Shown here piece after piece: positions 2-8,488 of a stretch of 11,175 nucleotides of DNA. The notes under the pieces were generated by a model. It worked only from the letters and a program-made list of their open reading frames with translations. It was not told the DNA's origin and did not search any database. The stretch's first letter is position 1; each line of letters begins with the position of its first letter. This DNA is from Rhizobacter sp. (lineage in GTDB: Bacteria; Pseudomonadota; Gammaproteobacteria; Burkholderiales; Burkholderiaceae), in assembly GCA_014379885.1 (NCBI GenBank), contig JACMKW010000117.1, positions 1-11,175 on the forward strand. The letters run 5' to 3'. Both the position numbers and the translations under genes were made by a program.

Positions 2-3000
2 GCCACCCCCGCCATCGCAGCCACCGCCACCACCACCCCCCAACTGCGCGTCGTGCAAGACATGCACAACGCCCCCGTCGGCCAGATACGCGCTGACGCC
101 GCCCATTCGCGCCTCTTCACCATCTCGCTCGACAAGACCCTGCGCATCTGGCGCATGGCCGACCTGCAACCGCTGCGCACCGTCTACCTGCCAGCCGAGC
201 CCGGCCTGGAGGGCACGCCACACGGCCTGGCGGTGAGCCGTGACGGCCAGCGCGCCTACGTGGGCGGCGTGACCGGTTGGCAGTGGAACCGCGCAGCCCA
301 CGTCTATGTGGTCGACGCCGACCGCGGCCGCATCAGCAACAAACTCGGCCGCTTTGACAACGACGCCGTCATCTCGCTCGACCTCTCACCCGACGGGAAG
401 CGCCTCGCCGTGGGCTTGGCGCGCGGTGGGGTGCACGTCATCGACGCCGACACCGGCGCCACGCTCAGCGCTGACTCCGCCTATGCCGCACCCGTGACCT
501 TCGTTCACTTCGCACCCGATGGCCGCCTGGCCTCGACCTCTGAAGACGGCTGCGTGCGTGTCTATGCCAAAGACATGGCGCTCAACTTCCGCAACCAATA
601 CCCGCCCGTGCCCGCCGGCCAGCCGCAATGCACTGGCTCGCAACTCGGTGGCATCCGCTTCTCGCCCGACGGCAAGTGGCTGGCCTTTGGTGTGCGCTAC
701 CGCGCCGATGGCGGCCGCTACCAACCCGAAGTGACGGTGATGGACGCCACCACGCTCACCGTGCACCGCACCCTGCGCACCGCCGAGGCTGACCAACAAT
801 CGTTGTGCTGCGTGGCCTGGTCGCCCGACAGCGCCACGCTCTACGTGAGCGGCAACGTGGAAGGCGATGGCCCCACGCCCATCTATCGCGTGCAAGGCCC
901 GCTCACCGGCGCATTGGAGCGCTGGAACGTGGGCCGCCAGCAGATCAGCAACATGCTGCCGCTGCCGCAAGGGCAGATCGTGCTCGCCACCACTGTGCCC
1001 TCCATCACCCGCGTGGGGGCAGACGGCCATGTGGTGATCGACCGCGAGGGCCGGCCACAGCAAATGCTGCCCCACAACATCGACTTCTACGCCCAGCGCG
1101 CCGACCTAAACGCCCTGCGCGCCTCGGCCGACGGCCAGTCGCTCGCTTTTGCAAGAGGTGATGCCTCGCGCCTGCGCGCCAACCTCTCCGCACAAAATCA
1201 GTTGAGCGTGCTCACCACCGAAGGCCTGGACGACAAGGCTTTGCAACCCGCACGCCGCGGCGGTGCTGTGAAAGTCGAAACCAGCACCGGCATCTACGCC
1301 TACCGCGAGCCCACCCGCGTGAATGGCAAACCCGTGGCGCTCGAGCGCGAAGAAAGCGTGTGGAGCTGGGCCGTGCATGCCACACAGCTCATCGCCGCAC
1401 TCGGCACGCAGTGGCGGCTGCGTGTGGTCGATGCACAAGGCAAACCGCTGCGCGCCTGGGAGAGCCCACCCTATCTGCCGGCGGCGGCTTTCCACACCCT
1501 CATCACCGCTGACGGCAAGAAGGTGGTGGTGGCTTTGGGCGACGGCACCATCCGCTGGTACGGCGTTGAGAGTGGCAAAGAGCTGCTGGGCCTGTTTGTG
1601 CACACCAACGGCAGCGACTGGGTGGCGTGGCGGGGCGATGGGTACTACGCGTCGTCACCCCAAGGCGACCAGTACGTGGGCTGGCTGGTGAACCGCGGTG
1701 ACCAGCAAAGCCCCGACTTCCATCGCGCCGTGCAGTTCGAGCGCCGCCTGTACCGGCCCGACCTGGTGCGCACGGCGCTGGGTGCGTCCACGCTTGCTGC
1801 CGTGGCCGCCGCCGATCAACTGGCCGACACACTGCGCCAGATGGCCGCACCGCGCGTGAGCATCGAAGCCATCAGCGCTGGCAGCGAGCCGGGGGTGCTC
1901 AACGTGCGCCTGAGCGCCGAGAGCACCGGCCAGCCCATCAGCGAGCTGGGTGTGTATGTGGACGGCGTGCCCGTGCTGCGCGCGGCCGAGCGCACGGTGG
2001 GCGCCGCCGAATCACAACGTGTCACGCGCACCGTGAGTGCAAGAGTGAACAGCGCGCAATCGGTGATCCGTGTGGAGGCCGAGACCGATCGCTCATTGGG
2101 CATCGACGAATCGGCCCCACTGGCGCAACCCGCTGCGGCGCGCGCCAAACCCGGCAAGCTGTGGCTGGTGGTGACGGGCGTATCGCGCTTTGACAGCGTG
2201 CTGGCCTGCGAGGCCGACAAAGACCCGAACAATGCCTGCAAGGTGCGCCTGAGCCAACTGCCCAACACCGCCAACGACGCGCGCGAACTGGCCGCCACCA
2301 TCACCCGCCACAGCGGCAAACTGTTCAGCAGCGTGAGCACTGTGTTGCTCACCGAAGACAGCGCCGACAAGCCCACCAAGGCCAACCTCGTGTCGCGCCT
2401 TCAAGCGCTCGACAAGGTGAACCCCGAAGACACCGTGCTCGTGTTCGTGGCCTCACACGGCTTCACGCCAGACCCGGCCTCGGGCGAGTACTACTTCGTC
2501 ACCAAAGACGCGAGCCAGCAAGACCTGTTGGCCGTCTTCACCGCCAAGCCCGGCCAGCCGGTGCAAGCGCGCGCCGCAGCGAGCCTGATGAGCGGCACCG
2601 AGCTGCACACACTGCTCAAGCGAGTGCCCGGCAAACGCATCCTGGTGCTCGACACCTGCCATTCAGGGGCGGCCGATGGCCGCAGTGATCCGTTCGCCCT
2701 GGCCAAGCGCAGCGCCTCGGCGCAAATTGCAGTGTTGTCGGCATCGCAAGGCGATCAAGAGAGTTATGAAATTCCGCAAAACGCGGCAGGCACCGCGCCC
2801 AAGCACGGCGCGTTCACCTATGCGCTGATGGAAGCCCTGTCGGGCAAAGCCGCGCCGGAGCAGGGTGGAGCGGTGACGCTGCAAGGCGCGTTCAAGTACG
2901 TGGGGCCGCGGGTGACGGAGATCTTGAAGGGGGTGCCGAGGAAGGCGTCGCAGGGGAGCTTGCAGACGCCGACTTTGACGGCGAGCCCGGCGTTGGCGGG

Positions 3001-3022
3001 GGCGGGGTTGGTAGGGCGGTGA
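2..3022 (+). CDS. WD40-like beta-propeller / caspase-family (C14) protease, 5' truncated by window edge
   Basis: The reading frame is open from the window edge, so the true start lies upstream; the first in-window start codon is GTG at 53, used here for residue numbers. Residues 1 to about 500 carry degenerate WD40-type blades with repeated 'SPDGK.LA' and 'LRIW'/'VHVID' strands. Residues 522 to about 570 (DWVAWRGDGYYASSP, then a VGWLVNRG stretch and RPDLVR) are a segment I recognise from bacterial WD40-caspase proteins. An Ig-like beta region follows at about 610-690. The C14 caspase-like domain runs from about 702 to 975, with the catalytic histidine in ASHG (H802) and cysteine in DTCHSG (C869), both intact. 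Family knowledge: such proteins are regulated cysteine proteases, often suspected in cell death or defence, with the propeller as sensor or partner-binding module. The substrate is unknown. The last ~50 codons switch from C-ending to G-ending codons. It ends 14 bp before the cassette array. Confidence 0.93.
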   Translation, partial: ATPAIAATATTTPQLRVVQDMHNAPVGQIRADAAHSRLFTISLDKTLRIWRMADLQPLRTVYLPAEPGLEGTPHGLAVSRDGQRAYVGGVTGWQWNRAAHVYVVDADRGRISNKLGRFDNDAVISLDLSPDGKRLAVGLARGGVHVIDADTGATLSADSAYAAPVTFVHFAPDGRLASTSEDGCVRVYAKDMALNFRNQYPPVPAGQPQCTGSQLGGIRFSPDGKWLAFGVRYRADGGRYQPEVTVMDATTLTVHRTLRTAEADQQSLCCVAWSPDSATLYVSGNVEGDGPTPIYRVQGPLTGALERWNVGRQQISNMLPLPQGQIVLATTVPSITRVGADGHVVIDREGRPQQMLPHNIDFYAQRADLNALRASADGQSLAFARGDASRLRANLSAQNQLSVLTTEGLDDKALQPARRGGAVKVETSTGIYAYREPTRVNGKPVALEREESVWSWAVHATQLIAALGTQWRLRVVDAQGKPLRAWESPPYLPAAAFHTLITADGKKVVVALGDGTIRWYGVESGKELLGLFVHTNGSDWVAWRGDGYYASSPQGDQYVGWLVNRGDQQSPDFHRAVQFERRLYRPDLVRTALGASTLAAVAAADQLADTLRQMAAPRVSIEAISAGSEPGVLNVRLSAESTGQPISELGVYVDGVPVLRAAERTVGAAESQRVTRTVSARVNSAQSVIRVEAETDRSLGIDESAPLAQPAAARAKPGKLWLVVTGVSRFDSVLACEADKDPNNACKVRLSQLPNTANDARELAATITRHSGKLFSSVSTVLLTEDSADKPTKANLVSRLQALDKVNPEDTVLVFVASHGFTPDPASGEYYFVTKDASQQDLLAVFTAKPGQPVQARAAASLMSGTELHTLLKRVPGKRILVLDTCHSGAADGRSDPFALAKRSASAQIAVLSASQGDQESYEIPQNAAGTAPKHGAFTYALMEALSGKAAPEQGGAVTLQGAFKYVGPRVTEILKGVPRKASQGSLQTPTLTASPALAGAGLVGR

Positions 3023-3036
3023 CGGGCTGGCGATAA

Positions 3037-3126
3037 GCTAATTCGCATGAATCGGCGAGGGCTTGCCGCAGGTTTCCATTGCTAGGCACGTGTGGCAAGC
3101 TGTGTAACGTATATATCGAGTTAGGC
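3037..3126 (+). other. Degenerate attC (or attI-like) site at the array start
   Basis: The right core is a perfect GTTAGGC at 3120-3126. Upstream, GCTAATTCG (3037-3045) is partly complementary to the CGAGTTAGGC end, giving outer arms. Inside lies a perfect 7-bp inverted repeat, GCTTGCC (3061-3067) and GGCAAGC (3094-3100). This nested-arm layout is what attC sites have. It does not share the AACCCTTCAAT or CCGCCTCTCAT motifs of the other sites, so it could be a foreign attC, an attI-type site or the original insertion point. Confidence 0.5.
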
Positions 3127-3199
3127 GTCGCATAGCCTCCAGGGCGCGGTTCACCGCTTCACGCTCTTCAAGCCAGGAACGTCCATCGCAAATCAAGTT

Positions 3200-3451
3200 A
3201 TGGAATACATCAATCACCTTCAGTGGCCCGCGATGATCGTCACAGTCATCGCCGCCTGGCTCATTGCTTCTCAGTCCAAAACCAAACGTGAGTTCGGCTT
3301 CTGGTTTTTTTTGGTCAGCAATGCTCTCTGGATAATTTGGGGTTGGAATGATCGTGCCTATGCTCTGGTCGCCCTGCAGGTTGCTTTGGCGGGTCTTAAT
3401 ATCCGCGGCGCCTACAAGAATGAATCAGCGTCACCAAAGGCCGACGCCTAA
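3200..3451 (+). CDS. Small three-helix integral membrane protein (cassette gene)
   Basis: An 83-residue protein with three probable membrane helices at about residues 9-25, 32-49 and 53-70, and a short polar C-terminal tail (KNESASPKADA). Small charged clusters (SKTKRE) separate helices 1 and 2, and the second segment is rich in aromatic residues (FGFWFF, LWIIWGW). I recognise the type as an uncharacterised small membrane protein seen in Proteobacteria, with a loose resemblance to part of PnuC-like transporters; I assign no function. ATG at 3200 has only a weak upstream purine stretch. The stop TAA (3449-3451) lies inside the left core of the next attC (GCCTAAC), which ties the gene to its cassette. 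Confidence 0.75.
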   Translation: MEYINHLQWPAMIVTVIAAWLIASQSKTKREFGFWFFLVSNALWIIWGWNDRAYALVALQVALAGLNIRGAYKNESASPKADA

Positions 3452-3514
3452 CCCTTCAATTGAGCGGACGTCATCCGGCAAGCCGGGCGCCGCCTCTCAT
3501 GTCAAACGTTAGGC
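3446..3514 (+). other. attC recombination site, canonical (69 bp)
   Basis: The left core GCCTAAC (3446-3452) and right core GTTAGGC (3508-3514) are perfect reverse complements and match the RYYYAAC / GTTRRRY consensus. The inner arms CCTTCAATTGAG and CTCATGTCAAAC pair imperfectly with unpaired bases, as expected for the folded bottom strand that IntI recombines. A CCGGC..GCCGG pair (3475-3485) forms the hairpin tip. It is the best preserved site in the window and looks functional. Confidence 0.92.
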
Positions 3515-3543
3515 TGCACGAGCCAGTCCCATTCGATCTTCAC

Positions 3544-3549
3544 AAGGAG
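3544..3549 (+). promoter_or_regulatory. Shine-Dalgarno AAGGAG that decides a GTG start
   Basis: AAGGAG lies 7 nt upstream of GTG at 3557. The spacing is ideal and no ATG in that frame is as well placed, so the GTG is taken as the start of the NTF2-like gene. Confidence 0.75.
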
Positions 3550-3556
3550 ACTCACC

Positions 3557-3997
3557 GTGAGTGACCCCGAGAAGCAGGTTCTACGAGCACTCGACACGTA
3601 CAAATCAGCCGTCCTGGCAAAGAACGCCGAGACGTTCATGCACCTCTACGACTCTGAAGTCAGGGTATTCGACACTTGGGGTGTGTGGTCATACGAAGGC
3701 GCCGCGGCTTGGAGAGTGGCCGTAGAAGGTTGGTTCTCTTCGCTTGGCAGTGAGACCGTCAGGGTCACTTTCGAAGACGTCAAAATCACGGCTGAGCCGA
3801 GCTTCGTCTCCATGAGTGCCTTCGCCAGGTACGCTGCCTTTTCGGCCCAAGGCGAAGAGCTTCGGGCAATGCAGAACCGTTTTACTTGGGTGCTTAAGTC
3901 TCGCGGCCATGTTCTACGCGTCATCCACGAGCACACATCTGCGCCGATCGGATTCGAAGATGTGAAGGCAATATTGAAGCGTGAAGGCAAGTCGTGA
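3557..3997 (+). CDS. NTF2-like / SnoaL-like (DUF4440-type) protein, cassette gene
   Basis: A 146-residue protein starting at GTG behind a strong AAGGAG. The pattern fits the cone-shaped alpha+beta NTF2/SnoaL fold: an N-terminal helix (LRALDTYKSAVLAKNAETFM), then LYDSEVRVFDTWG, a second helix around AAAWRVAVEGWFSSL, then long beta strands ending in RFTWVLKSRGHVLRVIHEHTS. The last segment is a typical C-terminal strand pair of the SnoaL_3/DUF4440 group. Members include small enzymes (isomerases, cyclases, hydrolases) and non-catalytic binding proteins, and the sequence does not decide between them. There is no signal peptide, so it is probably cytoplasmic. The length is full for the family and no frame damage is seen. 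It lies alone between two attC sites as a complete cassette; expression likely depends on an upstream promoter. Confidence 0.85.
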   Translation: MSDPEKQVLRALDTYKSAVLAKNAETFMHLYDSEVRVFDTWGVWSYEGAAAWRVAVEGWFSSLGSETVRVTFEDVKITAEPSFVSMSAFARYAAFSAQGEELRAMQNRFTWVLKSRGHVLRVIHEHTSAPIGFEDVKAILKREGKS

Positions 3998-4016
3998 GAG
4001 CACAGTGTCGCGTGCC

Positions 4017-4085
4017 CCCTAACCCTTCAATCGAGAGGGCGGCACCGGGCAAGCCAGGCCCCGCCTCTCATCTCAAACGGTGGAT
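4017..4085 (+). other. attC recombination site with variant right core GGTGGAT (69 bp)
   Basis: It aligns ungapped over its whole length to the site at 3446-3514, sharing CCTAACCCTTCAAT, GGCAAGCC and CCGCCTCTCAT. The left core is CCCTAAC (4017-4023). The right core is GGTGGAT (4079-4085): the second base of the invariant GTT triplet is G. Read as protein this site gives NPSIER...ASHLKR, a known signature of translated attC in this bacterial group. Confidence 0.88.
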
Positions 4086-4123
4086 GTCCGACCCATGGCG
4101 CGTACCAAACACTCGAGATTGCG

Positions 4124-4547
4124 ATGAACGAATTCAAGCTCTACTCCGGCCCGCTGAGCATGTTTGGCGCGAAGGTCGAGATCGCTGCGCACGAGAAGGG
4201 AATCAAGTTCGATTTGGTGATGGTGCCGTTTGACTTTGAACGCGGCTACGCGCCGAAACACCCGGAGGTGCTGCGCATCAATCCCAAACGTCAGGTGCCC
4301 GTCATCGTTGACGACGATGTTCAGCTCTTCGATTCCACGCAGCTATTCGAGTACCTTGAGGATCGCTGGCCCGAGCCGCCCCTTTTCGGTACCGTTGACC
4401 TCGGAGCATCCGAATCTACTTGCATGGCGCGGGCGCATGATTGATCGGCCACCCGTGAAGCTCGTAGTTGGGGCAATGGCGGACTACCTGCGCAGTCACG
4501 GCAAAGTGGTGCCGGAGCTTGGCGCCGCCTCTCATCTCAACGGGTAG
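4124..4547 (+). pseudogene. Glutathione S-transferase, internally deleted and frameshifted (cassette gene remnant)
   Basis: Residues 1 to about 90 form an intact GST N-terminal thioredoxin-fold domain: MNEFKLYSGPLSMFGAKVEI, the cis-proline segment NPKRQVPVIVDDD, and FDSTQLFEYLEDRWPEPPLF. Shortly after LFGT (around 4391-4403) the frame goes wrong and stops at 4444. In the +1-shifted frame the sequence resumes as SEHPNLLAWRGRM.DRPPV...YLRSHGKVVPE, which is the extreme C-terminus of the same family. The middle of the helical domain, roughly 80-100 codons by comparison with a ~210-residue GST, is missing at the join. The shifted frame then runs into a right-half attC and ends ELGAASHLNG. At best a ~106-residue N-domain fragment is made, without the helical domain that binds the second substrate. 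It is called a pseudogene; that the fragment has its own role cannot be excluded. Confidence 0.8.
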
Positions 4548-4549
4548 GC
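4513..4549 (+). other. Right-half attC remnant fused to the GST 3' end
   Basis: GGCGCCGCCTCTCATCTCAA (4521-4540) followed by GGTAGGC (4543-4549) matches the right half of the other sites. The left half with AACCCTTCAAT is absent and GST coding sequence abuts it directly, so the site cannot fold as a full attC. Its TAG (4545-4547) serves as the stop of the shifted GST frame. Confidence 0.75.
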
Positions 4550-4573
4550 CGCGAGCAGCTTGCTCCAAGGAAA

Positions 4574-5098
4574 ATGAGCGCCATCTCCTCACGCCGCTTC
4601 TTCATTGTTGTCGTGCTCCTCGTCGCGGCGGTGGCGGGTGCGCTGCTCAGGATCTTTTCGGCGCCACAGTCCACGCCGTACGATCTCGGCACGCTTCTCA
4701 TGGTCATGTGGATTCCGGTTGTCGGGAACATCATCTCGTTCCTCGCCAGGAAGCTGAGGCCCACGGCGCCATCGCCACCAACGTTCTCGTCCTCGATGGC
4801 ATTTGTTCCGCAGTTGGTTGTCGAACTCCAGTTGCATTCAGAGCCTGGCCTCGATCTGCCAAGGAAAGAACAAGACGGAAGAATTCACTGCCTCTTCCTC
4901 CTGGGAACAGAAGGCTTTTCGGTTCGGGTCGCTTTGCTGGAGAGTCACACGATTGGCACACCGCCGTGCGCGCAAGCCCAGTTTCTGTTCCCGGCAGCGG
5001 CACTTCCGAAGTTTCAAATCGGCAGCACGTTTCAGTTGATGCAAGGTCGGTCTGGTATTGGCACGGGCCAGGTTCTTTCACTGTCACCAAATGCCTGA
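4574..5098 (+). CDS. Two-helix membrane protein of unknown function (cassette gene)
   Basis: A 174-residue protein I do not recognise. Two strong hydrophobic helices lie near the N-terminus, at about residues 9-27 (FFIVVVLLVAAVAGALLRIF region) and 38-58 (LGTLLMVMWIPVVGNIISF). A basic link (ARKLRP) and then a soluble domain of about 110 residues with alternating beta-like strands follow (LVVELQLHSEPG, HCLFLLGTEGFSVRVALLES, KFQIGSTFQLMQG). SSRR before the first helix suggests the N-terminus is inside. AAGGA (4567-4571) precedes ATG by only 2 nt, which is short, but no better start is in frame. The stop TGA falls in GCCTGAC (5093-5099), the left core of a possible attC, the same arrangement as in the first cassette. 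The overlapping plus-frame ORF at 4468-5112 runs through a GST remnant and an attC half and is not protein-like. Confidence 0.7.
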   Translation: MSAISSRRFFIVVVLLVAAVAGALLRIFSAPQSTPYDLGTLLMVMWIPVVGNIISFLARKLRPTAPSPPTFSSSMAFVPQLVVELQLHSEPGLDLPRKEQDGRIHCLFLLGTEGFSVRVALLESHTIGTPPCAQAQFLFPAAALPKFQIGSTFQLMQGRSGIGTGQVLSLSPNA

Positions 5099-5194
5099 CC
5101 CATTCAGCATGACCCCCTTCACCAGCACCAGAGATCAAATGTCACGCCTGCGCCACGCGTGCCGGGCCATGCCTCTCAGCAAGATCCGCTAGCC
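5093..5194 (+). other. Possible degenerate attC, 102 bp
   Basis: The left end GCCTGACCCATTCAGCATGA resembles GCCTAACCCTTCAATTGAGC of the canonical site. The right end GCCTCTCA..AAGATCCGCTAGCC resembles GCCTCTCATGTCAAACGTTAGGC. The right core GCTAGCC (5188-5194) is off consensus at two positions. The middle is longer than in the 69-bp sites. Its position between two ORFs fits a cassette boundary. Confidence 0.45.
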
Positions 5195-5196
5195 TC

Positions 5197-6192
5197 ATGC
5201 ACACCGCCGAAGAATTCCTCGCGCTCGACCGGCTCACGCTGGGCGCGCAAGTCGAGCAGGGCGGCAAGGAGATGAGTACCGATCAACTGCTTCGGCGGTT
5301 TGAAGAAACGTTTCCCGTTTCACAGGTATGCACGGTGCGCCGAGACGCGATGCTCGTGGCGTACGCCATGTTGCAACCACAGTCTGAGACGTGCTGGTTC
5401 GTCACCTGTTTCAACGTTCATCCGCTCTATCGCACGTCGTCAGTCTTGTTTGAACTCTTCTCGGAGTTTGGTTCGCTGGTGCGTCGCTTTGGCATCGCCG
5501 AGTTGAAGAGCAACGTGTACAAGACCAATCAACTTTCGCTGTCATTTCACAGGCGGCTTGGCTTTCGGGTGACGCGCGAAAATGATCAAGCCGTTGAAAT
5601 GTTCACCACGGTGGCCGAGATGGCGGCCAACCCTTCCATCGAGAGAACGTTCAGAAGGCTGAGCCTCTTGAGCGCCTCCCCACGCAGCGAAAGTGTCGTC
5701 ACGCTTGAGCCGAGAACAAGGGCTCATGCAGAGGAGTTGTTCCCGGTGCTCTCCGAAGCCCGCCTTTACGACTTCCTGGACGAAAGGCCGCCCCACTCCG
5801 TTGATGCTCTCCGGGAGCGTCTGGCCCGCAGCGAGTCAAGAAAATCACCCGACGGCTCGGAGCACTGGCTGAACTGGGTTGTTCGCGATGCAACGGGCCA
5901 GGCCGCGGGTTACGTCCAGGCCACAGTGATGGCCACGCTGGAAACCAATGTTGCGTACTTCATCGGCAGTGCGCACTGGGGGCGTGGGGTCGCTTATGCA
6001 GCCGTTGGTCAAATGCTCCGGCTGGTCGAGGCCGAGTTCGGGGCAAAGCGGTTCTTTGTCGTGGTGGAAAGAGAAAATGTGAGATCAATCCGCTTGGCTG
6101 CGCGGCTTGGCTTCCTGCCAGCGTCGCCCGAACAGCCCGTAGAGAGAGCGATATCACCCACCGAGATCCTCATGGAAAGAGTTCTCCCCTGA
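5197..6192 (+). CDS. Tandem GNAT N-acetyltransferase: two GNAT domains fused across an attC remnant
   Basis: A 331-residue ORF with two acetyltransferase domains. Domain 1 (residues 1 to about 143) is a compact GNAT: strand LVAYAMLQ, CWFVTCFNVHPLYR, a helix ending RRFGIAELKSNVY, and the C-terminal NQLSLSFHRRLGF that closes the acetyl-CoA site. Domain 2 (about 167-331) is of RimJ/RimL type (Acetyltransf_3): VTLEPRTRAHAEELFPVLSEARLYDFL, VAYFIGSAHWGRGVAYAA (pyrophosphate-binding loop) and ENVRSIRLAARLGF. Each is about the length of a complete stand-alone enzyme. The linker begins NPSIERT (residues 145-151), the translation of an attC left half, so two cassettes appear to have been joined when the site between them was damaged and the first stop lost. 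Both would transfer acetyl from acetyl-CoA to unknown amine substrates. ATG 5197 has no clear Shine-Dalgarno; ATG 5272 is possible. Confidence 0.82.
   Translation: MHTAEEFLALDRLTLGAQVEQGGKEMSTDQLLRRFEETFPVSQVCTVRRDAMLVAYAMLQPQSETCWFVTCFNVHPLYRTSSVLFELFSEFGSLVRRFGIAELKSNVYKTNQLSLSFHRRLGFRVTRENDQAVEMFTTVAEMAANPSIERTFRRLSLLSASPRSESVVTLEPRTRAHAEELFPVLSEARLYDFLDERPPHSVDALRERLARSESRKSPDGSEHWLNWVVRDATGQAAGYVQATVMATLETNVAYFIGSAHWGRGVAYAAVGQMLRLVEAEFGAKRFFVVVERENVRSIRLAARLGFLPASPEQPVERAISPTEILMERVLP
5625..5655 (+). other. Left-half attC remnant inside the fused GNAT ORF
   Basis: GGCCAACCCTTCCATCGAGA (5625-5644) matches CCCTAACCCTTCAATCGAGA of the site at 4017 at nearly every position. No right half (CCGCCTCTCAT..CAAACG) follows at the expected distance; only loosely similar CTCTTGAGCGCCTCCCCAC is seen. 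The match ends before the second GNAT domain begins. Confidence 0.75.
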
Positions 6193-6199
6193 GGCAAGG

Positions 6200-6267
6200 T
6201 CGCAACCCTTGTATCGCGAAAGCGAGGCCCGAAAAACTGGGCGCGCCGCAGATCTCAAACGGTGGAC
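6200..6267 (+). other. attC recombination site with variant right core GGTGGAC (68 bp)
   Basis: It begins TCGCAACCCTTGTATCG, related to CCCTAACCCTTCAATCG of the 4017 site, and ends ATCTCAAACGGTGGA, a 15-base exact match to the end of that site. The right core GGTGGAC (6261-6267) again has GGT in place of GTT. The left core TCGCAAC is poorly complementary to the right core, so folding and activity are doubtful. It starts 8 nt after the stop of the double-GNAT gene. Confidence 0.8.
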
Positions 6268-6320
6268 TTCCATTTCAATTCGTTGGCTTTAGGCGTGGCG
6301 TGCGCTCAGGAAGCGAGAGA

Positions 6321-6337
6321 CCGCGCTGGCAGCGCGG
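6321..6337. repeat. Perfect 7-bp hairpin, 3-nt loop
   Basis: CCGCGCT-GGC-AGCGCGG is a perfect GC-rich hairpin in the non-coding leader between the 6200 attC and the PH-domain gene. No T-run follows on the plus strand and only a mixed TCTCTCG on the minus strand, so it is not a standard terminator. A second TTAGGC (6289-6294) just upstream may be another attC core fragment. The remaining leader (6268-6422) holds nothing else I can identify. Confidence 0.6.
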
Positions 6338-6412
6338 AAAGCCGTCGTGACCTGCGTATTTGGATCAGCCTCTGAACACGCCGGGACTAAACTTTGCCGT
6401 TGCACAGAACCC

Positions 6413-6416
6413 AGGA
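6413..6416 (+). promoter_or_regulatory. Shine-Dalgarno AGGA that decides the start of the PH-domain gene
   Basis: AGGA lies 6 nt before ATG 6423. The longer frame would need a TTG at 6360 without such a site and would add 21 residues with no family counterpart. Confidence 0.6.
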
Positions 6417-6422
6417 ACCCCC

Positions 6423-6845
6423 ATGACGAGCTACGTTGAAGGCGCTTTGGTCAAAGACGAGAAGATCGTGCACCTCGGGCATATCAGTCTCTGGTCCATT
6501 TGGCATCTCATCGCTCTGGGTGTTGTATTGCTTCCGGTCTTCGGGATGGGCTTGGTGTTCCTGGTCATGGCATACGCCAAGTACAAGACCACCGAGCTGG
6601 CAATCACAACCAAGCGAGTCATTGTCAAGTTCGGGTTCATTCGGCGCAGCACGATCGAGATCAACATCAACAAGGTCGAAAGCATCCAGGTTGATCAAGA
6701 AGTGCTCGGCCGCATGTTCAATTTCGGCACGCTGCTCATTTCAGGCGCCGGCACGCCACAAGCGCCTATCGCTGGCATCTCCGGGCCGATGGAGTTTCGC
6801 AAGGCATTCATTGAAGCCCAGGACCAGGCGAAGTCAGGCGCCTGA
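6423..6845 (+). CDS. Bacterial PH-domain (bPH2 / DUF304-like) membrane protein, cassette gene
   Basis: A 140-residue protein from ATG 6423. It opens with MTSYVEGALVKDEKIVHLGH, the usual lead-in of small bPH proteins. A hydrophobic hairpin follows at about residues 22-53 (two membrane helices, split at P38), then the PH-like beta domain from about 55. The family signature is clear: ELAITTKRVIVKFGFIRRST, then EININKVESIQVDQEVLGR, then FGTLLISGAGTP, then GPMEFRKAF. Such proteins sit in the inner membrane with the PH barrel in the cytoplasm; their function is largely unknown. The length is normal for the single-domain type and nothing is broken. The stop TGA lies in GCCTGAC, and the last residues (AKSGA) seem to be written by an attC right-half remnant. 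An alternative start is TTG 6360. Confidence 0.85.
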   Translation: MTSYVEGALVKDEKIVHLGHISLWSIWHLIALGVVLLPVFGMGLVFLVMAYAKYKTTELAITTKRVIVKFGFIRRSTIEININKVESIQVDQEVLGRMFNFGTLLISGAGTPQAPIAGISGPMEFRKAFIEAQDQAKSGA

Positions 6846-6857
6846 CAGACGGTGGCC
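6831..6857 (+). other. Possible right-half attC remnant at the PH-gene 3' end
   Basis: AAGTCAGGCGCC (6831-6842) resembles AAGCCGGGCGCC of the 3446 site at 10 of 12 positions. After a shortened middle, ACGGTGGCC (6849-6857) resembles the ACGGTGGAC end of the 6200 site. The CCTCTCATCTCAA segment is missing. It is short and could be chance; position and the pattern of the other remnants support it. Confidence 0.35.
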
Positions 6858-6882
6858 GCAAGTATCAAACTGCGAGGTCGAC

Positions 6883-7446
6883 ATGAAAACCCAGTACTAC
6901 ACCGCCAGCAGCCTGGACGGTTTCATCGCCACGGAAGATCACTCGCTGGCATGGCTGTTCCCGCTTGGCGACATCAATGACACCAGCTACCCCAACTTCA
7001 TCCGGGACGTGGGGGCACTGGCCATGGGGGCGTCAACCTACGAGTGGATGCTGCGTCACATCGTCAAGCCGGGCACCCCGGAACAGGCCAACTGGCCCTA
7101 CTCGCAGCCAACTTGGGTGTTCAGCCATCGCGAGCTTCCTGCTGTGCCTGCCGCCAACATCCATTTCGTGCGAGGTGACGTGAGGCCCGTGCACGAGGCC
7201 ATGGTGCAGGCCGCTGGCGGCAAGAACGTCTGGGTCGTCGGGGGTGGCGATCTGGCGGGCCAGTTCCATGACCAGGGGTTGCTGGGCGAGATCGTTGTTC
7301 AATTCGGGTCGGTGACCCTGGGCTCAGGCAAGCCGCTGTTTCCAAGGCGTATCGTTTCGCCGCCCCTGCAACTCACATCGGCACAGTTTGTCGGGCCCGG
7401 ATTTGCCGAGCTCACGTATACGGTGCCGCGCGCCCTGCAGTCTTGA
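6883..7446 (+). CDS. RibD_C / dihydrofolate-reductase-like family protein
   Basis: A 187-residue protein from ATG 6883, with GAGG (6874-6877) 5 nt upstream. The pattern is that of the DHFR-like RibD_C family: MKTQYYTASSLDGFIA at the first strand, LAMGASTYEWML (the usual '.mGr.TYe' helix), TWVFSHR, VRPVHEAMVQAAGGKNVWVVGGGDLAGQF (the NADPH-binding 'wv.GGg.l...f' segment), and LFPRR..PPLQLTSAQ at the end. Known members reduce a pyrimidine intermediate of riboflavin synthesis or other small substrates with NAD(P)H. Stand-alone copies like this are mostly uncharacterised, and it is not a classical dfrA/dfrB resistance gene. It lies 37 nt after the PH-domain gene and could be the last cassette, but no clear attC is visible downstream. 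It appears intact. Confidence 0.87.
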   Translation: MKTQYYTASSLDGFIATEDHSLAWLFPLGDINDTSYPNFIRDVGALAMGASTYEWMLRHIVKPGTPEQANWPYSQPTWVFSHRELPAVPAANIHFVRGDVRPVHEAMVQAAGGKNVWVVGGGDLAGQFHDQGLLGEIVVQFGSVTLGSGKPLFPRRIVSPPLQLTSAQFVGPGFAELTYTVPRALQS

Positions 7447-7597
7447 ACCTGCGGAGGGGCCTTAGTTCGATGTAGCCACGGGCCCCGGGCAGCGACTGAC
7501 GTGTCGCGCATGTGAATTCAAGTTCTCGCGAAGCAAGCCGCATCGCGAAGAAGGGCAGCACCCGGCTTACGCGCAGGTGCTGTCTTACAAGCAACGC
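7447..7597. other. Intergenic stretch between convergent genes
   Basis: 151 bp between the DHFR-like gene and the stop of the isomerase gene. I see no gene and no full attC; CTTGAAC (7442-7448) and GTTCGAT are weak core-like words only. TCGCGAAG occurs twice about 17 bp apart. The one clear structure is the hairpin at 7556-7582. Confidence 0.6.
7556..7582 (-). terminator. Possible weak terminator of the isomerase gene
   Basis: A perfect 7-bp inverted repeat CAGCACC (7556-7562) / GGTGCTG (7576-7582) lies 15 bp past the isomerase stop. On the minus strand it is followed by CCCTTCTTCG, which is pyrimidine-rich but lacks a proper T-run. Intrinsic termination is plausible but weak. Confidence 0.4.
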
Positions 7598-8488
7598 TTA
7601 CTTCGACGCGGCCGTTGCAGGTGCCGACGCCGCAGGCGCCGGTGCGCCGACCACGTCGATCTTGGCTGCCGTCTTCAGCGCATCCAGCTGCTTCTTCACG
7701 TTTTGCTGCAGCAGTTGCTGGCTGAGCTGCGGCTTGAGTGAATCAATCGGCGGGGCTTCGATGGAGCGCGAGTCGTCGAGCAAGATGACGTGGTAGCCGA
7801 ACTGGGTCTTGACAGGCTCTTCGGTGAACTTGCCCTTTTCGAGCTTTTGCACCGCAGCGCTGAACTCGGGAACCATGCCCTTGGGGTCAAACCAGCCGAG
7901 GTCGCCGCCGGTGGCTTTGGAGCCCGGGTCTTTCGACTTTTCTTTGGCCAGGGCGGCAAAGCCGGCCGTTGACTTCTTGAGCTTGGCGATGATGTCCTTG
8001 GCGTCAGCTTCTTTCTCTACCAGGATGTGGCGTGCCTTGTATTCGGTGCCGCCTGACAGGGTCTTCATGCGCTCGTATTCGGCCTTCATCATTTCGTCGG
8101 TGACGGGGTTCTTCTTGACGTAGTCTTCCACGTAGGCATTGGCCAAAACCGACTGCTTGATCGCTTCCAGCTGCTGCGAGAACTCAGGTGTCTTGTCCAG
8201 GCCTTGTTTGACCGCTTCTTGGGCGATCACCGTCTGCAAGGTCAAGTTGTCGAGGATGGCCTTGCGCATCTCCGGTGTGACGGGCTGGCCTGAACCGGAG
8301 CGCTGCTTGACCACCATGTCGACGGTGCCCTGCGTGATGGCCGTTCCGTTCACCGTGGCAACCACGGTGGTGTCAACGCCTGAGGCGGCGGTGGCGGCGG
8401 GCTTGGCATCTTTGCCACCGCCGCACGCGCTGAGGGCGAGCAATGAGACGGCACTGGCCAGAAGAATTCCGGTTTTGAAGGTACGCAT
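7598..8488 (-). CDS. Parvulin-type peptidyl-prolyl cis-trans isomerase, lipoprotein
   Basis: A 296-residue protein. The N-terminus is a lipoprotein signal, MRTFKTG then a hydrophobic stretch to LSAC with the lipid-attached cysteine at residue 22, so the protein is likely anchored in the membrane and faces the periplasm. A SurA/PrsA-like helical region follows (VNGTAITQGTVD, then RKAILDNLTLQTVIAQEAVKQG). The parvulin domain begins at YKARHILVE and continues through FAALAKEKSKDPGSKATGGD, LGWFDPKGMVPEFSAAV and TQFGYHVILLDD. This is the full set of rotamase motifs. Role: proline isomerisation and chaperoning of exported proteins. The C-terminal tail is Ala/Pro-rich. AGGA (8496-8499) lies 7 nt before the start. 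High GC and regular codon use mark it as core chromosome rather than cassette. It is convergent with the DHFR-like gene and divergent from the patatin gene. Confidence 0.93.
   Translation of the reverse strand: MRTFKTGILLASAVSLLALSACGGGKDAKPAATAASGVDTTVVATVNGTAITQGTVDMVVKQRSGSGQPVTPEMRKAILDNLTLQTVIAQEAVKQGLDKTPEFSQQLEAIKQSVLANAYVEDYVKKNPVTDEMMKAEYERMKTLSGGTEYKARHILVEKEADAKDIIAKLKKSTAGFAALAKEKSKDPGSKATGGDLGWFDPKGMVPEFSAAVQKLEKGKFTEEPVKTQFGYHVILLDDSRSIEAPPIDSLKPQLSQQLLQQNVKKQLDALKTAAKIDVVGAPAPAASAPATAASK

Follow-up and report, generated by a model that had tools for sequence, protein, structure and literature searches.

The stretch of DNA analysed in this work (hereafter the window) is 11 kb long and is represented by a single record. 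An open reading frame (ORF) of 331 aa that begins with ATG and has no stop inside lies at 5197..6192 of the plus strand, and it is predicted to encode a two-domain enzyme. The first GNAT domain (residues 1-143; 5197..5625, plus strand) was matched by Acetyltransf_1 of Pfam when it was searched alone (E 1.4e-4, 22.6 bits against a cut-off of 20.7), and this is the weaker of the two matches. The second GNAT domain (5692..6189, plus strand) is RimJ/RimL-like, and residues 168-306 were matched by Acetyltransf_3 (E 1.1e-20, 75.1 bits against a cut-off of 25.4). Both domains are above the curated cut-offs of the GNAT profiles. The whole protein is related by sequence to the distant solved structures 1mk4 and 3juw, and the profile of the first domain matched 11 solved-structure sequences, the best of which is 1mk4 at 1.3e-7. 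The window has no match in Rfam.

The canonical acetyl-CoA loop motif of GNAT proteins is R/QxxGxG/A. The preliminary description of this locus had reported two complete GNAT domains, which holds for the second domain, where 55 of 55 highly conserved positions are kept, a fraction not reached by 61 of 80 relatives. It holds only in part for the first domain, which belongs to a family without the usual loop glycines. According to the alignment, the first domain reads HPLYRTSSV at the loop position and departs from the canonical motif, and the glycines are also missing in 21 aligned relatives; weak or no activity would be predicted for this domain. It retains 48 of 51 conserved positions, with only 4 of 33 relatives scoring lower by this measure, so divergence may be somewhat greater in the first half than in the second.

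The relatives of the two halves were searched together and separately. The search with the whole protein, which admits proteins of approximately 182-579 aa and hence a fusion of similar size if it is close enough, returned 66 matches including the fusion itself, and none of the 65 others covers more than 56% of it in the best local alignment. The search with the first half returned 44 relatives of 149-183 aa, the best of which (P0067) is 78% identical. The search with the second half returned 212 relatives, and the top match among the best 120 of these 212 reaches 79% over 94%. Judging from these matches, the two domains normally occur as separate proteins, because each half matches stand-alone GNATs while no other protein covers more than 56% of the whole. 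The rarity of the fusion and the stand-alone matches of each half had both been anticipated in the preliminary description, and the many homologues with the same two-domain layout that would have spoken against it were not found among the 65. A joint alignment of both halves was unusable, with first-domain relatives placed on the second domain. The first domain was also sought in viral contigs, where 19 stretches matched the pattern and none is a true relative, and in plasmids, where 21 records matched and none spans 80% of the query.

At the linker between the two domains, the fusion reads NPSIERTFRRLSLLSAS and then PRSESVVTLEPRT. Residues 145-151 (NPSIERT) are encoded by 5629-5649, and these bases agree with the left arm of an attC site at 20 of 21 positions when G is required as in the consensus of the other sites. 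The agreement is 21 of 21 on the pattern AACCCTTCMATYGAGAGRACG, whose R was written to admit the A of the fusion itself. With up to three mismatches allowed, this pattern has three matches in the window (3450, 4021, and 5629, the last being exact), whereas shuffled sequences (n=200) gave 0.00 on average. The matches at 3450 and 4021 fall on the left arms of two good attC sites. The left-arm score of 5629-5649 is 39, compared with a null maximum of 31. Codons alone do not account for this likeness, because, when NPSIERT was back-translated 200,000 times with the codon usage of the window, only 865 of the resulting sequences reached 20/21 on the strict pattern and only 81 reached 21/21 on the wider one.

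We refer to this translated attC remnant, which comprises a left arm and a loop and reads NPSIERTFRRLSLLSAS, as site D (5629..5680, plus strand). Its left arm was placed by pattern and its right edge is approximate, from comparison with P0067. The right arm is absent at the join. As a complete attC, site D scores 9.9 bits (E 0.59) with a covariance model built from eight attC sites, two of which are sites A and B of the window (90 and 81.8 bits). No attC-type hairpin is formed when site D is folded (z 0.50 and 0.32); the corresponding values are -2.38 for site A, -1.66 for site B, -0.75 for site E, and -6.26 for the G172 site. The attC left half recognised earlier in the linker is thus borne out by the 20 of 21 agreement, and the view that only this half was retained should be corrected, as attC sequence seems to continue to approximately 5680 in the comparison with P0067.

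Four other attC traces were identified in the window, all on the plus strand. Site A (3446..3517, 90 bits) is intact. Site B (4017..4088, 81.8 bits) has a right core that is damaged in the alignment (GGTGGAT). Site C (4525..4549) is a right arm only, with three mismatches and a chance expectation of 0.00. Site E (6200..6270), which has a degenerate core, directly follows the fused ORF and scores 21.9 bits (E 6.4e-4). It is the least sure of the five traces, with E 0.012 in a larger search and single-arm scores of 27 and 24 that lie in the chance range (null maxima 28 and 31). The starts of sites A and B are 571 bases apart, so that two or more attC sites follow one another, as in a CALIN. Four of the five traces are damaged, site A being the exception. 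An attC-like right arm before the ATG (approximately 5170-5194) is weak and was rejected as being at chance level (23 against a null mean maximum of 25.1).

The genes between the sites are small and unrelated. They include an 83-aa ORF with a match to NMN_transporter below the cut-off, a SnoaL-like gene, and a fragment of a glutathione S-transferase, and further small genes in the row are a 174-aa ORF without Pfam match, bPH_2, and RibD_C. The glutathione S-transferase fragment at 4124-4549 retains the N-terminal domain only (106 aa) and is followed by the right-arm-only site C, so that the damage here mirrors that seen at the fusion. At 3994-4233, site B is open throughout in the NP-frame (NPSIERAAPGKPGPASHLKRW and onwards), since GGTGGAT replaces GTTAGGC in its right core; the resulting frame of 79 aa differs from the frame of the next gene. 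The left flank of the row carries a WD40/caspase-domain gene, and the right flank carries a gene for a PPIC-type isomerase and another whose match to patatin is below the cut-off. No integrase was found among the window ORFs that were scanned, which are part of the 76 ORFs of the 11 kb.

The flanking genes suggest that the host is probably Burkholderiales-like and that the window is probably chromosomal. The isomerase was matched in 151 of 300 genomes of the order at E up to 1e-60, and the closest matches are three members of one family of 22 genomes (61-63% identity). In that family, 16 of 22 genomes have matches to the attC model and 15 of 22 have an integron integrase over the curated cut-off, compared with 0 of 14 controls. 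Both genes of the fusion were sought in the 22 genomes with 0 and 0 matches, and an empty answer there is not evidence of absence. The attC patterns were found in 0 of 5 genomes that hold relatives, in 2 of 399 genomes of the order, in 2 of 4, 2 of 61, and 3 of 22 in further searches, and in one stretch of IMG/VR. The window is most simply understood as a decayed piece of a sedentary chromosomal integron, or as lying beside one. It resembles a CALIN or a sedentary chromosomal integron array in its several attC sites, the small unrelated genes between them, and the lack of an integrase among the scanned ORFs. It differs in that four of its five attC traces are damaged, and an integrase could lie beyond the 11 kb.

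The stand-alone protein closest to the first domain is P0067, for which the protein sequence was used; it ends with NPSIERTFKRLRLLNASHVKR and a stop. We infer that its C-terminus, EMTANPSIERTFKRLRLLNASHVKR and the stop, would be the reading of a whole attC with the stop at the core site. Complete attC sites that are read in the same frame give NPSIERTSPGKPGAASHVKR (G172 site) and NPSIERTSSGKPGAASHVKR (site A of the window), each terminated by a stop in the core site GTTAGGC. The stretch common to the fusion and P0067 ends at approximately 5680, and the last arm, together with the stop of P0067, is missing from the fusion. The motif N[PTR]S[IV]ER occurs at the linker position in 10 of the 44 first-domain matches, and two of these (P0084 and P0107) carry NRS and are less surely attC. 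Five of the 44 read on to an [AS]H[VL][KE]R end, as a full attC would. In a tree of 64 rows, which omits L011 because a stop interrupts its frame and L020 because its match is short, P0067 is the row nearest to the window, and one well-supported set of 24 contains 9 of the 10 rows that carry the attC-tail label. The tails of two other close relatives of the first domain, AAARAIGRTFKRLRRLNVARTQP in P0068 and AAARAIGRTFKRLRLPNAGRAQS in P0069, look like a decayed attC reading kept as protein.

None of the attC tail patterns searched for was seen in the second-domain relatives that were compared. Those with the TLEPRT motif start from 1 to approximately 24 residues before it, so the start of the second gene is consistent with a junction near the boundary between SAS and PRSESVV.

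The frequency of genes that end inside attC sites was surveyed with the covariance model, which gave 66 matches in 22 sources. Of these, 53 were kept, and 13 were dropped as being on the opposite strand or under 25 bits (except site E). The longest upstream ORF ends before or within the first core site at 39 of the 53 sites, inside the site at seven, and beyond it at five, and two sites have none; no read-through case is longer than 183 aa. In the NP-frame, the first stop lies in the right core at 12 sites and between at 22, 18 sites are open throughout, and one stops at once. Genes that end inside attC are therefore a minority but not rare. According to PMC8876359, the TAG that occupies positions 3-5 of the core site can act as the stop codon of a gene. 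Two genes have their last codons and their stop inside their own attC and are independent cases of attC as a coding tail: a stand-alone 173-aa GNAT by Pfam (L072, 1666-2187, minus strand), which lies in another frame than the read-through ORF of that locus, and a deaminase-type gene (L079, 4740-5225, plus strand). No fused gene comparable to 5197-6192 was seen among the 53 surveyed sites.

The fused gene is very probably a cassette in an old attC row whose frame was opened by the partial loss of an attC site. The first gene would belong to a GNAT family in which some members are translated into their own attC reading and stop at the TAG of the right core (GTTAGGC), and the parental cassette would have been of the kind suggested by P0067 and others. 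The last arm of the attC and the leader of the following cassette would have been deleted, together with the probable stop codon of the first gene. With this stop lost, translation would continue in frame into the RimJ/RimL-like GNAT. The product, if expressed, would have 331 aa, of which approximately 17-20 residues, read from attC, would form the linker; any activity of this protein is likewise predicted from sequence. The end points of the deletion are estimated from protein comparison, and site E is a weak indication that the second gene was also a cassette. The attC row would be no longer maintained, and decay by deletion would be the likeliest cause of the join. Plain decay is favoured because four of the five attC traces are damaged and no integrase was found among the scanned ORFs. 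The partial loss of attC that had been proposed in the preliminary description fits the left arm that is present and the right arm that is absent, and it explains the open frame.

The alternative that keeps most weight, and which we regard as possible but doubtful, is that no fused enzyme is made, either because the second GNAT starts from an internal codon or because the gene is silent. An in-frame TTG was read from the sequence at 5668..5670 (plus strand), and AGAAGG lies nine bases 5' of it, inside the translated attC remnant. A product from this codon would be 174 aa, which fits the 172-175 aa of several stand-alone relatives, and a crude scan found no promoter-like site in 3000-7600, as a silent gene would have it. 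However, the upstream frame runs through this codon and would also yield the fused product.

It is unlikely that the two genes were joined by illegitimate recombination of the integrase or by slippage at the attC hairpin and not by plain decay. Both routes, slippage during replication at the attC hairpin and illegitimate recombination by the integrase, are named for fused cassettes in the review PMC8876359, and the integron integrase of 15 of 22 genomes in the host-like family would have been at hand for the latter. However, the break lies in the right arm before the core site, away from the crossover point, and both the damage to four of five attC traces and the lack of an integrase among the scanned ORFs of the window speak for decay.

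That the fusion is an artefact of assembly, in which two cassettes that are separate in the cell were joined, is highly unlikely. The attC sites are repeats and one record supports the junction, but the sequence beyond approximately 5680 is unique and continues in frame into a second gene with 55 of 55 conserved positions, and the alignment shows little sequence in common with attC at the break. A sequencing error that hides a stop had also been raised earlier. The stop is not masked by a one-base error, because the whole stretch that reads SHVKR and a stop in P0067 has no counterpart in the fusion.

The C-terminal tail of the first GNAT family was compared with the reading of attC. The motif [NKRS]P[AS][IV]xR is found at the corresponding position, without gaps, in 10 of the 18 chromosomal first-domain loci read, a count that leaves out a 19th locus (L011) broken by a stop, and the attC covariance model found no site in the chromosomal loci L001-L020 at E up to 1. 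The peptide NPSIERT is therefore not proof of attC by itself, as had been supposed, and it is the DNA that is diagnostic: the tail of the Glaciimonas locus (L005) reads NPAIERTLKKLRGQPG and a stop, and its DNA agrees with the attC arm at only 14 of 21 positions. It is extremely improbable that NPSIERT is simply the native tail of this family, with a chance likeness to attC and an ordinary deletion between the genes, which is what the ten tails and the empty model search would suggest, because the linker DNA matches attC beyond the constraint of codons, the Glaciimonas DNA does not come close, the window contains two good attC sites, and five relatives continue to the attC end.

The overlap between the two readings is nevertheless considerable. 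The attC left arms in the same frame commonly spell NP[SA]xxR[TD]. A tail profile was made from 34 rows outside the cassette-bearing set, omitting L017, L018, and L019 (distant), P0107 (attC-labelled), and P0101 and P0103 (near copies), and NPSIERT was outscored on it by only 130 of 300,000 random 7-mers. Against the same profile, 36 of 52 attC readings (the 53 surveyed sites minus one that stops immediately) are above the 99th percentile of random 7-mers. Eight registers in three frames were tried and just one scores well, in a comparison made after the fact, and for this reason the overlap of the attC left-arm reading with the native enzyme tail is treated as a lead only. A further reading is that the tail of this family is a fossil or a recurrent product of translated attC, kept in chromosomes after the death of the site and serving both as attC and as tail in cassette-borne members. 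We consider it distinctly unlikely: the chromosomal tail DNA is not attC-like (14 of 21), the attC model found no site in L001-L020, six rows were omitted from the profile, and the register was chosen for comparison in hindsight. If it were true, the fusion would be a second step in which attC became first a tail and then a linker.

The partial loss of attC that we favour for 5197-6192 is not a new route to fused genes. Fused cassettes that arose through partial or total loss of attC are described in the excerpts of PMC4670013 and PMC8876359 that were seen. In the class 1 integron cassette blaGES-1/aacA4, the first attC is cut to 6 bp (PMC4670013, in part), and ant(3'')-Ii/aac(6')-IId is reported to give one bifunctional ANT/AAC protein (PMC8876359, in part). 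Two pairs of acetyltransferases that are fused in class 1 integrons, AAC(3)-Ib/AAC(6')-Ib' and AAC(6')-30/AAC(6')-Ib', are mentioned in PMC3656343. As far as these excerpts go, 5197-6192 would share with the class 1 fused cassettes the merger of neighbouring cassettes by partial or total loss of attC; both ORFs of 5197-6192 are found separately elsewhere, and the attC of the first cassette is partly lost. The two fused AAC pairs, like 5197-6192, are two acetyltransferases fused within an integron. However, the class 1 fused cassettes are resistance genes, whereas 5197-6192 has no integrase among the scanned ORFs around it and no sign of membership in the AAC proteins, for which the best NCBIfam model scores 21.0 bits, far below its cut-off of 140. 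In contrast to the 6 bp of blaGES-1/aacA4, a large part of the attC seems to survive in 5197-6192 and to be translated into the linker.

No report of the 5197-6192 fusion or of a translated attC as linker was found in the parts of the open-licence literature that were covered, and NPSIER gave one match, which is unrelated by its title. The kind of event is rare but known, and what is notable is the specific pair of genes, the translated attC linker, and the overlap with the native enzyme tail. The locus extends gene fusion by damage to a recombination site beyond the resistance genes in which such fusions were found described. It also suggests why some cassettes fuse easily: where the stop codon lies in the core site of attC, the loss of the site opens the frame. 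The raw material for such fusions would be common, because the NP-frame is open to the right core site or beyond at 30 of the 53 attC sites.

One relative of the second domain, P0003, in which no attC-like linker was detected by the tail patterns searched, carries another N-terminal partner that is YhfF-like according to the name given by its source.
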